Source: Ruminococcaceae bacterium R-25
Lineage (GTDB): Bacteria > Bacillota > Clostridia > Saccharofermentanales > Saccharofermentanaceae
NCBI GenBank assembly: GCA_003149065.1
Contig: QGFZ01000001.1
Coordinates: 1,054,001 to 1,118,000 of the forward strand
Length of the DNA: 64,000 bases
Direction: 5' to 3'
Shown: positions 6,355-27,566 of the stretch, piece by piece
How the letters are laid out: the number at the start of each line of letters is the position of its first letter
Position numbering within the stretch: the first letter of the stretch is position 1
The notes under the pieces: generated by a model
Seen by the model: the letters and a program-made list of their open reading frames with translations, nothing else
Told to the model about the DNA's origin: nothing
Database searches by the model: none
Program-made: the position numbers and the translations under genes

Positions 6355-7251
6355 TTATGAGGCAAAAGAGCGTAAATGCTCTATATATTTCTCACCCAGT
6401 TCGCTTAACGTGCTGCCGTCGCGCGTAATATAGATGACAGAGGTCTTTTCCCTGCTGTCATAAGGGATTGCTGTATACCTGCTGCCGTTTAATTCTTCAC
6501 AGATAATGCCGGAACAAAGCGTATATCCGTTAACTCCGGTCATCAGATTCAACATAGTTCCGCGGTCATTGACCCTGATTATGTTTCTCTTGGCAAACAT
6601 GCTTACCGGCTCTTCCGACAGATAGATCGGCGCACCTTCTCCCTGTGTAAAAGTCAGGCACGGATATGCCTCCAGGTCTTTTTCTGTCACTCTCTTATAT
6701 TTTGCAAGTGGGTGCTTTGATGACAGATAAGCAAATACCTTGCAGTCAAAGAGCTTGTGATACTGAAGGTTGTTCGCCTTCAGATATTTGATCAGATAAT
6801 TGCTGTTATATTCATCAATGTGTATTATGCCGATCTCGGATCTGAATGTTCTTACATCGTTTATGACATCCGATGTCTTTCCTTCATATATTGAGAAATC
6901 GAACTTGTCAGTACCGTAATTTGAAATCAGCTCAATATAAGATTTAACAGCAAATGTATAATGCTGCGTGGAAACACCGAATCTTATCTTCTGTTCTTTA
7001 TCGATATACCGCTCTTTAAGCAGGTCGTATTGAGCTACGACCTGTCTCGCATAGACAATAAAATCAGCACCTTCTGCAGTGGTGGTAACACCTCTGTTGG
7101 AACGTTCAAATATAGTTATGCCTATCTCATCTTCGAGATCCTTTATAGCATCGGATATTGCCGGCTGTGATACATAGAAACGCTGTGCTGTTTTATTTAT
7201 CGACTTCTCATCTGCAGTAGTGATCGCATACATCAATTGCTGCAATGTCAT
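6355..7251 (-). CDS. LysR-family transcriptional regulator (sulfur-type)
   Basis: 298 residues. The N-terminal winged helix-turn-helix (about 1-60, SINKTAQRFYVSQPAISDAI) is followed by a periplasmic-binding-like effector domain. The stretch FGVSTQHYTFAVKSY resembles LysR proteins that control cysteine and methionine genes in Firmicutes, where O-acetylserine or a related metabolite is the usual effector (family knowledge). It has a GAGG ribosome site and lies 44 bp after the SDR gene, so it may be the third gene of metY-SDR-lysR. The mar promoter lies directly downstream, which makes it the first candidate regulator of that operon. It is similar over its whole length to the LysR at 9717-10631. 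Confidence 0.88.
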   Translation of the reverse strand: MTLQQLMYAITTADEKSINKTAQRFYVSQPAISDAIKDLEDEIGITIFERSNRGVTTTAEGADFIVYARQVVAQYDLLKERYIDKEQKIRFGVSTQHYTFAVKSYIELISNYGTDKFDFSIYEGKTSDVINDVRTFRSEIGIIHIDEYNSNYLIKYLKANNLQYHKLFDCKVFAYLSSKHPLAKYKRVTEKDLEAYPCLTFTQGEGAPIYLSEEPVSMFAKRNIIRVNDRGTMLNLMTGVNGYTLCSGIICEELNGSRYTAIPYDSREKTSVIYITRDGSTLSELGEKYIEHLRSFAS

Positions 7252-19660: not shown

Positions 19661-20620
19661 TCAGATAATGTAATACCACTCGTCTCCCTGCTTGACCTCT
19701 TCACTCTTAACGTGCTTGCCATCAGTTTTATTTTCTTTTTCGAGATTGGTCATGCTGACTTTGGAGTTAGGTTCAACAGATGCGGTGATGAATGAGTTAC
19801 CGCCGATAACGGTATTCTCGCCGATCACTGTGTTGCCGCCAAGGATAGAAGCATTTGCGTAAATTGTAACATTATCGCATATCGTAGGATGACGCTTCTT
19901 GCCTGAGAGCTTCTGGCCGCCTCTTGTGGAGAGCGCGCCGATAGTAACACCCTGATAGATCTTAACGTTGCTGCCGATGATGGAAGTCTCACCTACAACG
20001 ATACCTGTGCCGTGGTCGATGAAGAAATACTTGCCGATCGTAGCGCCCGGGTGAATGTCAATACCTGTCTCGGAATGCGCATATTCGGTCATGAGACGCG
20101 GCAGGATCGGCACCTTAAGTAGATAAAGTTCATGCGCAATACGATAGACTGTAATTGCCATGAGGCCCGGATAAGCGAGGATGACCTCATCGAAGTTAGC
20201 TGCAGCAGGGTCACCATCAAGCGTAGCCAGAAGGTCTGTCTCGATATATTCCCTGATCATGGGGATCTTCTTGAAGAATTCGGTCGTGATGCGGTAGCTC
20301 TCCTCTTCGCGCTTCTCGTCAGTCATCTTGTCATCACTCTGGGAATAATCGAGAGCTCTGTAGATCTGCTTTTTCAGATGATAGAAAACGTCTTCGATAG
20401 TTACTGCGAAGGAATTCTTCGGATTATAGATCTTATATGTGAGGTCTCTGAAATATCCGGGATATATGATCCTGAAGAAATGCTCTACGAGCTCTCTTAC
20501 CTCATCCTTATCAGGATTGGAAAAGAGCTTTATCGCATCTATATTCTTTCCGCCATTGTAATCATCAAATATCGCCTGGACGATCTGGTCGATCTCTTCG
20601 TGCATTGCATCTTTAGTCAT
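19661..20620 (-). CDS. cysE: Serine O-acetyltransferase
   Basis: 319 residues. The N-terminal alpha-helical domain (1-185) is followed by a left-handed hexapeptide beta helix (about 190-290) with HSETGIDIHPGATIGKYFFIDHGTGIVVGET carrying the catalytic His and Asp (quoted in part: IDIHPGATIG and FIDHGTGIVVG). It makes O-acetylserine from serine and acetyl-CoA, the first step of cysteine synthesis. It is longer than E. coli CysE (273) and resembles the long EpsC-type enzymes of anaerobes. O-acetylserine is also the usual effector of sulfur LysR regulators. Expression is probably controlled by the five-Cys leader and attenuator upstream. Confidence 0.92.
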   Translation of the reverse strand: MTKDAMHEEIDQIVQAIFDDYNGGKNIDAIKLFSNPDKDEVRELVEHFFRIIYPGYFRDLTYKIYNPKNSFAVTIEDVFYHLKKQIYRALDYSQSDDKMTDEKREEESYRITTEFFKKIPMIREYIETDLLATLDGDPAAANFDEVILAYPGLMAITVYRIAHELYLLKVPILPRLMTEYAHSETGIDIHPGATIGKYFFIDHGTGIVVGETSIIGSNVKIYQGVTIGALSTRGGQKLSGKKRHPTICDNVTIYANASILGGNTVIGENTVIGGNSFITASVEPNSKVSMTNLEKENKTDGKHVKSEEVKQGDEWYYII

Positions 20621-20642
20621 AACAACTTCTCCTTCATCTCAA

Positions 20643-20674
20643 TAAAAAACCCGAAAACTCTTATTGTTTCCGGG
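20643..20674 (-). terminator. Attenuator terminator before cysE
   Basis: On the minus strand CCCGGAAAC pairs with GTTTTCGGG over 9 bp (one G-U) around a 7-nt loop, then six U. It lies 22 bp before the cysE start and ends transcription of the leader. Its 5' base overlaps the 12-bp antiterminator pairing between 20731-20743 and 20672-20683. Confidence 0.85.
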
Positions 20675-20743
20675 TGAATCTTACTTACATACTGCTTTTA
20701 CTGGCATTCATCGCATACAAACTGCGTCCTTAAGATTCAACCC
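20672..20743 (-). promoter_or_regulatory. Antiterminator of the cysE attenuator
   Basis: RNA segment GGGUUGAAUCUUA (20743-20731), which spans the last codon and stop of the leader ORF, is complementary to UAAGAUUCACCC (20683-20672) with one bulged U, 12 pairs. The second segment includes the CCC that forms the base of the terminator stem, so the two structures exclude each other. A ribosome held on the Cys codons leaves the first segment free; one that reaches the stop codon covers it. Confidence 0.75.
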
Positions 20744-20799
20744 TGGGACAAACAGCAACAACAACATAAAAGATTGTAATTCTCAGATGTATGAGTCAT
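20737..20799 (-). CDS. Poly-cysteine leader peptide of cysE
   Basis: A 20-codon ORF, MTHTSENYNLLCCCCCLSQG, with five consecutive Cys codons (TGT TGT TGT TGC TGT). It has an AAAGG ribosome site 9 bp before ATG, and starts about 24 nt after the predicted transcription start. It lies between a good promoter and the cysE attenuator. This is the classic design of amino-acid attenuation: slow decoding at the Cys run when Cys-tRNA is scarce should favour the antiterminator and cysE expression. Poly-Cys leaders are known upstream of sulfur genes in mycobacteria; Firmicutes usually use T-boxes for cysteine genes. Confidence 0.88.
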   Translation of the reverse strand: MTHTSENYNLLCCCCCLSQG

Positions 20800-20829
20800 A
20801 TGCGTATACCTTTCTCTTCTTATTTAGGA

Positions 20830-20858
20830 ATTCTATCAGCAATTACCCACCTGGTCAA
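20830..20858 (-). promoter_or_regulatory. Promoter of the cysE leader
   Basis: TTGACC (20853-20858) and TAGAAT (20830-20835), spacer 17 bp. The predicted start is near 20823, just before the leader ORF. The TraX-like gene ends 12 bp upstream. Confidence 0.7.
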
Positions 20859-20869
20859 TCTGTAAGACA

Positions 20870-21586
20870 TCAGGCCGGATTGCCGGTCAGGAACAGTTTT
20901 AACAGATAAAGAAGCAAAAGGTGGCCCGGATAGAACGCATAGAACAGCCATTTAAGGCCCTTACCCTTCTTTCCGTTATAAAGAAGCAGCGGGATAAGGC
21001 TGAGACCTGTCGTGCAGTAGTATCCCATTGTCCTCGTCAGCGCCAGGAAAGCGACACCGGGAATCGGCCTGACATAATGATTTACATCCTTGAACACATA
21101 GAACAGGAAGACCGCGATGACTGCAAAGAACGTATAATCCGCTCTTACCAGCAGTGCAAAAACAGCCATAGCAATTACTGCCAAAATACCGAGGATCGTT
21201 CTTCCAACGCTGTATTTGCCTGTAATATCCTTTTTCGAGCCCCTGATAAGATCGAAAAGCTTCAGCGCAAGAATGGCGATAAAGAAAGTCAGCATTATAT
21301 TCTGATGCGTGATGTTGATATTGCCTTCAAAAGCAAGGTCGAAAGGCACTTCGCTGACGAGCGCGAAAATCCCCATTCTTAAGAGATACTTATTCCTGTT
21401 TCTGGTATGGATATAGCCTTCGGTAATACAGAAAGCGAAGATCGGCATAGCAAGACGTCCGACCATCCTCAGCCACATCATGTCAGGAAAAAACATATCG
21501 CCGACGTGATCAAAAACCATGCTTACCATGGCAATGATCTTGAGCATCGTACCGTCAAGAATTCTGATTTTGTTAGCTTTGTCCAT
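20870..21586 (-). CDS. TraX family membrane protein
   Basis: 238 residues, about seven to eight membrane helices. The beginning (LDGTMLKIIAMVSMVFDHVGD) and RLAMPIFAFCITEGY followed by NKYLLRMGIFALVSEVPFDL are hallmarks of the TraX family (PF05857). In the F plasmid TraX acetylates pilin N-termini; chromosomal copies in Firmicutes have no established role and belong to a wider membrane acyltransferase group. No conjugation genes are nearby. Ribosome site AGGAG. It is transcribed toward cysE, which has its own promoter. Confidence 0.85.
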   Translation of the reverse strand: MDKANKIRILDGTMLKIIAMVSMVFDHVGDMFFPDMMWLRMVGRLAMPIFAFCITEGYIHTRNRNKYLLRMGIFALVSEVPFDLAFEGNINITHQNIMLTFFIAILALKLFDLIRGSKKDITGKYSVGRTILGILAVIAMAVFALLVRADYTFFAVIAVFLFYVFKDVNHYVRPIPGVAFLALTRTMGYYCTTGLSLIPLLLYNGKKGKGLKWLFYAFYPGHLLLLYLLKLFLTGNPA

Positions 21587-27378: not shown

Positions 27379-27537
27379 TAAAGGATTTGAGTGAAATAGA
27401 AGTTAATTCCTATCAGACAGGCAGGATTATTGCGGAAAAGCAGTTTTTCCTTGGGAATACTACACTTTGCACTCTGATTCATATATACTTTTTTCGAGAT
27501 TTCCGACACGAATTTACAGGTTGTATGTTAATTCCTA

Positions 27538-27566
27538 TTGACTTGGTGGGTTTATAGGTTTATCAT
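27538..27566 (+). promoter_or_regulatory. Promoter of a putative non-coding RNA
   Basis: TTGACT (27538-27543) and TATCAT (27561-27566), 17-bp spacer. The only thing downstream before a terminator is about 155 nt of structured, non-coding sequence. The upstream part of this gap (27379-27537) shows a 12-bp direct repeat GTTAATTCCTAT at 27402 and 27527 and nothing else recognised. Confidence 0.55.

Follow-up and report, generated by a model that had tools for sequence, protein, structure and literature searches.

We describe an element that very probably controls serine acetyltransferase by ribosome-mediated transcription attenuation, sensing charged tRNA-Cys; it belongs to a group of Cys leaders in its genus that share an operator. 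It lies on the minus strand of a 64,000-nucleotide stretch of the genome of Ruminococcaceae bacterium R-25, which was analysed as a whole and is called here the window. Judged from sequence, the cysE leader is no isolated oddity, being one of several putative Cys leaders on sulfur genes, and the best reading of the data, which are computational only, is a cysteine (perhaps cysteine and methionine) leader-peptide attenuation regulon in Clostridia. The parts of the element, their conservation, their geometry and the mutually exclusive folds were established by sequence comparison and computation; transcription, translation, stalling and the response to cysteine are inferred, in the absence of RNA or expression data.

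An earlier note on this DNA had proposed that a promoter, a leader, a 12-bp antiterminator and a terminator form here a complete attenuator, and all these parts are present on the minus strand. The predicted promoter (20858-20830), of the sigma-70 type, has a -35 box TTGACC, a 17-nt spacer and an extended -10 box TAGAAT, and a weak version of the shared operator, agreeing with its consensus at 13 of 20 positions, overlaps the -35. Purine-rich sequence and a presumed 5' leader, the transcription start being a prediction only, precede the ATG of the leader ORF MTHTSENYNLLCCCCCLSQG (20799-20737, including the stop codon), which is 20 codons long, is kept in relatives and contains five Cys codons, TGT TGT TGT TGC TGT (20766-20752). 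The antiterminator is built of 12 bp with one bulge. Its 5' arm GGGTTGAATCTTA (20743-20731) holds the leader stop codon, as had been claimed, and its 3' arm TAAGATTCACCC (20683-20672) overlaps by ACCC the 5' strand of the intrinsic terminator (20675-20643), composed of a 10-bp stem (20675-20649) and a U tract reaching to 20643. After a gap of 22 nt follows the controlled gene (20620-19661), with a product of 319 residues, a serine O-acetyltransferase of the EpsC/CysE type. It scored 153.8 bits against family model NF041874, above the cut-off of 150, and 165.2 bits against TIGR01172, under the cut-off of 210.65; it is the former model that supports the naming of cysE as the target of control.

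In the mechanism we propose, a ribosome would halt on the five Cys codons when cysteine is low, leaving the downstream arm GGGTTGAATCTTA bare to pair with TAAGATTCACCC as that strand emerges; with the two paired, the base of the terminator stem could not close and RNA polymerase would read into cysE. When cysteine is ample, the ribosome would reach the stop codon inside the arm and mask it, and the terminator would form. For the folding, the bases covered by the ribosome, taken to reach from 16 nt upstream to 12 nt downstream of the A-site codon's first base, were kept from pairing, and the transcripts ended before the terminator 3' strand. In such truncated transcripts the antiterminator of the window's element had a probability of 1.00 when any of Cys codons 1-4 occupied the A-site and of 0.26 when the fifth did; on the Leu, Ser, Gln and Gly codons and on the stop codon it was 0.00. 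The polarity suggested previously, in which Cys starvation leaves the arm free, is thereby reproduced, and in the truncated folding the element behaves as an attenuator should: its antiterminator excludes the terminator, and the arm is free on stalling and masked at the leader end.

The full-length transcript behaves differently at equilibrium, where the terminator prevails at every ribosome position on the window's leader and wins at nearly every position at 12 other folded loci. As equilibrium folding of the full transcript makes no switch visible, whereas truncated transcripts do, we infer that the switch acts during transcription, that is, kinetically. Kinetic switching is usual for attenuators. 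In truncated form most of the 12 other loci resemble the window's element. L166 displayed no switch at its Cys codons (0.00-0.02, shortest transcript), L007 was weaker, with an antiterminator probability of 0.52 at the second Cys, in L007 and L018 the arm was unmasked again with the ribosome at the stop, and four of the 12 dipped at the Leu preceding the Cys run. The overlap of the class I antiterminator with the terminator strand is no more than four bases (ACCC).

In the enteric trp and his attenuators the position of the ribosome on the regulatory codons selects the antiterminator or the terminator, and in this type a protector hairpin gives termination when the leader is untranslated. The window's element differs in that no protector hairpin was seen in its folding and that the antiterminator is predicted without any ribosome (probability 1.00, truncated transcript), so that termination would need the leader to be translated to its end. 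Within the limits of the folding model, the missing hairpin lowers the claim of a trp-type attenuator, not that of a leader-peptide attenuator.

Taken alone, the promoter and terminator signals stay near shuffle levels, as would be expected of a chance assembly of ORF, hairpin and promoter. The consensus scan found six promoters where 3.8 were expected in shuffles, which is not above chance, and three terminators where 1.4 were expected, which is weakly above it, so the case against chance rests on conservation in relatives. We retrieved 110 serine acetyltransferase loci from genomes and GTDB contigs; 10 had at least three consecutive Cys codons in an upstream ORF, nine of them distinct (L050 duplicates L018), and all belong to the window's genus, by kinship or by a contig shared with such a genome. 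This genus is probably that of Saccharofermentans-like rumen bacteria, to go by sequence likeness, and a named relative, L040 (the same contig as L206), carries a 99% identical gene. A covariance model of the nine cysE leaders matched at one place each in 10 genomes, these being the nine from which the model was made and one further, G109, and all ten matches, G109 included, sit just upstream of cysE. Throughout the alignment the Cys run stays in frame despite changes of N-terminal length, L007 bears a synonymous TGT/TGC swap within the run, and the antiterminator bulge, by eye, is shifted in position among relatives. The class I antiterminator arms are paired in 88% of cells, against 18-49% when slid. 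No class I antiterminator pair has changed on both sides and the covariation score is not above that of shuffles; in the terminator, two pairs have changed on both sides. Leader conservation, which had been put forward as a check, is thus met, the leader being kept with antiterminator and terminator in 10 of 85 genus genomes. This conservation, the synonymous Cys codon change and the fact that further sulfur genes show the same design led us to reject a chance assembly, to which we give almost no credence.

The switch at cysE is patchy, coming and going among relatives. In L008, L009, L021 and L095 the cysE promoter is followed directly by the terminator, without leader ORF or antiterminator (read by eye), and in two of them, L008 and L009, the cysE protein is 92% identical. 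These leaderless loci are possibly deletion relics. Some Fibrobacter-labelled rumen records (among L079-L105) hold serine acetyltransferases about 67-70% identical to the clostridial one, a likeness that hints at gene transfer or at misbinned contigs.

In three relatives (L027, L030 and L166) cysE is preceded by a leader of another sequence, in which CxCC or CCxCC replaces CCCCC. The arm of this second class, CTCCCGTA, is unrelated to the first and pairs with the terminator strand TACGGGAG; two of the three have the stop codon at the arm, and L030 has lost one base, with the leader frame shifted and the arm retained. That this gene also occurs with a second, different sequence obeying the same logic speaks strongly for the logic being what is kept, the arm sequences changing at one gene within the genus. 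A model from these three leaders matched in 18 of the 85 genus genomes and, beyond the three cysE sites, led to 17 further loci, one of them in the strain's own genome (L224), each with a Cys-cluster leader, a CTCCCG arm and a terminator. According to their translations, 13 stand ahead of the S-component of an ECF transporter and four, in four relatives (L217, L225, L228, L231), ahead of a glutamate-cysteine ligase; one protein of each kind was scanned against families (for the ligase only that of L225), and both remained under curated cut-offs. Other Cys leaders would follow the logic of the window's element with this different arm (CTCCCG...) and the shared promoter operator.

In the strain's own genome the Cys leader ahead of the ECF S-component (L224/L240, G000:C2:759853-760631) is followed by a TIGR04002-like protein under the cut-off. 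The presence of the leader suggests a cysteine-related substrate for this S-component, whose cargo is not settled by the family scan.

Besides that of cysE, the own genome contains at least five other Cys-cluster leaders, four of them with an intrinsic terminator. The five targets are the O-acetylhomoserine sulfhydrylase of the window, a cystathionine lyase/synthase, a MetQ lipoprotein, the ECF S-component and a second sulfhydrylase, only the last of which is above a curated family cut-off. These leaders were reached via the promoter operator and not via the scan for Cys-codon runs. The latter (TGY-x4) returned 41 places against 22 in its reversed-pattern control, with two other short CCCC ORFs, L149 (43 codons) and L162 (60 codons), and it is blind to leaders of the CC type because it requires four consecutive Cys codons.

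The operator motif AACCTATTGACNNNGTAGGTNA, with the -35 inside it, was drawn from the promoters of such leaders. Searched in the own genome without any leader model, it occurred at 8 places with at most three mismatches, against 3 in the reversed control. Six of the places differed from the motif at one position, and behind five of them stands a short ORF with Cys clusters; one of these five, the ECF site, had been among the promoters from which the motif was drawn. The sixth site belongs to a leaderless cysteine desulfurase gene (L235), divergent from an Rrf2-type regulator gene (L235 and L335, G000:C2:810612-811095). The own genome has two Rrf2 genes. From the operator at a desulfurase gene divergent from an Rrf2 gene we infer that an Rrf2 repressor is the likely reader of the motif, and that the Cys-leader regulon is probably under a repressor of this type. 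Among the collected leaders a -35 could be located in 76, and 51 of these match the operator consensus at 18-20 of 20 positions. An operator-like match at 27532-27552 of the window faces no listed gene of at least 150 codons.

Such an operator could also be the sole control of cysE, through an Rrf2/CymR-like repressor, with the leader a translated but passive ORF and the terminator setting a fixed read-through. The recurrence of the operator at sulfur genes and at the leaderless cysteine desulfurase gene is compatible with this, and so are the close cysE relatives that have a promoter without a leader. We consider it improbable, for it leaves unexplained why the Cys clusters are in frame, why the step from them to the arm is usually 11-12 nt, and why two unrelated arm sequences both pair with the terminator strand.

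Within the window there is a second Cys-leader attenuator (9679-9451, minus strand), which is absent from the earlier note. It comprises the shared operator TACCTATTGACATAGTAGGTAA with the -35 (9679-9658), a leader ORF MNRISANIMMCCRMLNSRANGLTGVSCRCLK (9613-9518, including the stop codon) with Cys-Cys codons at 9583-9578, an antiterminator 5' arm CTCCCGGGC (9566-9558) and a terminator (9485-9451), the 5' strand of which, GCCCGGGAG, partners the arm. Behind it lies an O-acetylhomoserine/O-acetylserine sulfhydrylase-like gene (9419-8121), which scored 405 bits (E 3.2e-121) against TIGR01326, under the cut-off of 495.1. The leader is of the MMCC kind and is matched by the leader model R3 (G000:C1:1063452-1063637), though it had been in the training set of that model. 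A match to RF02399 at this attenuator (20.2 bits, E 0.087), below the gathering score of 39, was taken as chance. Ahead of the second sulfhydrylase of the genome, at L233 (G000:C2:146123), the leader MYDHKFYFQSLVRANFRCGRMCCSCSNSRCSDSTTITI stands behind the shared operator with no terminator seen, and its start region, read by eye, may pair with codons inside its own ORF.

Model R3, made from 19 leaders, matched in 65 of the 85 genus genomes; 14 of the 65 had supplied training sequences, and chance may account for matches close to the threshold. From 104 entries we kept 79 leaders of distinct DNA, excluding duplicates and entries without a passing ORF. The selection required a Cys cluster (CC/CxC), so that Cys counts are partly a matter of construction, and the number is an undercount, as the permitted range of positions missed L267 and L259 and the CC/CxC filter missed L315, whose leader reads by eye as MCSMWCRM. 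The targets are 33 MetQ-like lipoproteins, 14 ECF components, 11 cysE genes, 9 sulfhydrylases, 4 glutamate-cysteine ligases, 2 cystathionine enzymes and 6 other genes. Three of these six (L303, L305 and L310), together with L316, are Cys leaders preceding a LysR gene that resembles the one at 6355-7251 of the window; the gap of 44 nt between the latter and the gene before it is too short to hold such a leader.

An adjacent Cys pair is present in 77 of the 79 leaders and at least three Cys in 75. The tests of arm and folding were confined to the 75 leaders having an arm of at least 6 complementary bases, with L007, L019, L266 and L233 excluded. The arm begins 11 or 12 nt past the first Cys cluster in 54 of them, which is about the reach of a stalled ribosome. 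Outside the TCCCG/CGGGA core, 354 of 660 cells in 55 distinct arm pairs are Watson-Crick, where 1000 shuffles among loci gave 283 on average and 321 at most; the shuffle ignores relatedness, and the gain is not seen at every position. With the ribosome placed on the leader, 72 of the 75 switch, a switch being defined as an antiterminator probability of at least 0.8 on a cluster Cys and of no more than 0.1 once the arm has been reached. Of the remaining three, L005 had its arm misassigned by the script, and L214 and L216 are genuine misses.

In 66 of the 75 leaders the ORF extends more than 9 nt beyond the arm, and in most the arm becomes free once more when the ribosome stands at the stop, the probability being at or below 0.2 in only 16 of 75. 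We suppose that in these long leaders a ribosome located between arm and terminator bars their pairing, a barrier that the folding model did not include, since it allowed pairing across the ribosome. In leaders with a terminator the stop is mostly about 30-44 nt ahead of it. The codon just ahead of the stop is for Cys in 44 of the 66 long leaders, Cys occurs within the last five residues in 57, and no part of the simple attenuation model needs this terminal Cys. Long leaders with a run past the arm are seen, for example, in L237, L284 and L301. As a short leader, with its stop in the arm, the cysE leader of the window does not meet the problem of an arm free at the stop.

The composition of the leaders leaves room for a wider sensing, of Met together with Cys, in which ribosomes at Met-linked genes (MetQ, sulfhydrylase, cystathionine enzyme) would stall at MMCC/CMCCC and starvation for either amino acid would give read-through, the cysE leaders responding to Cys alone. 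Of the 2480 residues in the 79 leaders, start residue excluded, 10.5% are Met and 11.6% are Cys, the leaders having been selected by their Cys, not by their Met; the string MMCCRM is found repeatedly in front of MetQ and sulfhydrylase genes, and both classes of cysE leader are without Met in or beside the Cys cluster. However, Arg, which is not a sulfur amino acid, is equally frequent (10.8%), an AUG before UGY may persist for reasons of RNA or spacing, and the window's cysE leader has only Cys codons at its stall site. We therefore keep dual sensing as a tentative possibility, short of being probable.

Poly-Cys leaders have been described in Actinobacteria, mycobacteria included, with no obvious terminators according to the accessible part of the source (PMC1262725), and the poly-Cys ORFs of M. 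smegmatis are cited, in the portion of text available, as a case of translation attenuation (PMC13236596). They resemble the window's element in the run of Cys codons upstream of cysteine genes and in being, as far as these partial sources go, Cys-responsive (PMC1262725, PMC13236596). The window's element differs by its 5' leader, antiterminator and intrinsic terminator, the mycobacterial type having no conserved terminator hairpin in what is accessible of the source (PMC1262725). A leader acting on translation or via Rho, and not through an intrinsic terminator, has been proposed or shown for the mycobacterial ORFs in the parts of those papers that are available (PMC1262725, PMC13236596), and the own-genome leader L233, with Cys clusters and no visible terminator, would fit it. 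At cysE we regard such action as very improbable, as an intrinsic terminator with a U tract is present there and the script finds a terminator behind 78 of the 79 leaders (that of L266 is doubtful; L233 has none). A leaderless ORF without an intrinsic terminator, by which the mycobacterial type may be recognised, is not what stands at the window's cysE, with its terminator and predicted 5' leader. A 2020 paper by Canestrari is said, going by its title, to describe the mycobacterial poly-Cys ORFs as leaderless. Our reading for cysE remains that of transcription attenuation at an intrinsic terminator.

Outside the genus Cys leaders are rare in the two samples searched, 391 genomes of the class and 398 of the phylum. 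A class-wide search with the leader model, in which 6 candidates per genome were scored, gave matches at E 1e-4 or better in at least 25 of the 391 genomes, 6 of them in the genus. Leaders of the CCRM type beyond the genus are those of L266, L267, L268 and L270; L266 and L268 precede an amino-acid ABC permease (by eye) and L270 a sulfhydrylase. L267, in genome G234 from another family, has the leader MVRFETNKQNHTMCCRMLISRAYNLAGAFGCSCTRLIKK with arm and terminator, followed downstream by a cysteine-synthase-like stretch (by eye) and then by a glutamate-cysteine ligase. The matches L271, L273 and L275-L282 cover short stretches without such a leader and look like chance. The exact pattern of MCCRM plus arm was found in 9 of the 391 class genomes, six in the genus plus G234, G260 and G479, with 0 in the reversed control among the matches listed, and in 3 of the 398 phylum genomes, namely the own genome, G260 and G692. 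The match in G692, which is from another class, lies inside frames open for 281-290 codons and looks like coding sequence.

Cysteine genes of Firmicutes answer to T-boxes and to repressors of the CymR and LysR types, and in clostridia a Cys T-box reads tRNA-Cys charging and stops transcription early at cysK-cysE and at transporters, as stated in the accessible part of one study (PMC2940859). The window's element would share with it the reading of tRNA-Cys charging and the early end of transcription; the T-box, as that portion of the study presents it, differs by binding the tRNA directly, with no leader ORF. Searches with Rfam models, T-box RF00230 included, gave no match in the window, nor in 20600-20900 up to E 1. 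The own genome has at least five T-box matches (66 of 83 candidates scored), which by the translations read lie at trpE-, trpD-, pheS-, aspS- and XRE/cupin-type genes, and none at these sulfur genes. A T-box-like element ahead of an XRE/cupin-type gene is seen at L130 (G000:C2:455954-456197). Clostridia lacking the Cys T-box may control cysteine by other means, as the same study notes (PMC2940859), and the Cys leader regulon is one candidate for such a mechanism.

Leader-peptide attenuation of transcription where T-boxes are usual is known in Firmicutes for His (PMC2965389, PMC9413887) and, in S. aureus, for Leu (PMC5794164), with 3-5 consecutive His codons in predicted his leaders, as far as the available parts of these papers show. 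Those attenuators resemble the window's element in mechanism and differ in amino acid and genes; the window's genome has several unlinked sulfur genes with Cys leaders. At cysS of Rhodobacterales, the uORFC-8-2 motif is a predicted Cys transcription attenuator which, like the window's element, combines a short ORF, tandem Cys codons, stems and a U run, and which, unlike it, belongs to Alphaproteobacteria, occurs at cysS only and has two Cys codons, in the part of the source accessible (PMC8632094). No Cys leader of Firmicutes was found in the open-access literature among the matches listed, subscription papers being largely uncovered, and the string MCCRM met there only unrelated text among the matches listed. 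The element had been called unusual and possibly undescribed, which can be maintained for cysteine in Firmicutes within open-access sources, some seen only in part, and cannot be extended further, Cys leaders being known elsewhere and His and Leu leaders in Firmicutes. The mechanism as such is known; the amino acid, the gene set and the arm design were not found described for Firmicutes.

On a larger scale, we see about an even chance that in this lineage of rumen Clostridia much of the control of sulfur amino acids has passed to a leader-peptide attenuation regulon (cysE, sulfhydrylases, cystathionine enzyme, MetQ, ECF S-component, glutamate-cysteine ligase, LysR), with two unrelated arm designs, one Rrf2-type operator, Met as a second sensor in the Met-linked leaders, the ribosome past the arm as a barrier and the Cys before the stop maybe as a further checkpoint. 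Near the LysR and sulfhydrylase genes of the window lie two nitrogenase-like component genes (6233-3401, minus strand), whose matches are under the cut-offs of the nitrogenase models and which we take to be perhaps a nitrogenase-like sulfur-salvage enzyme.
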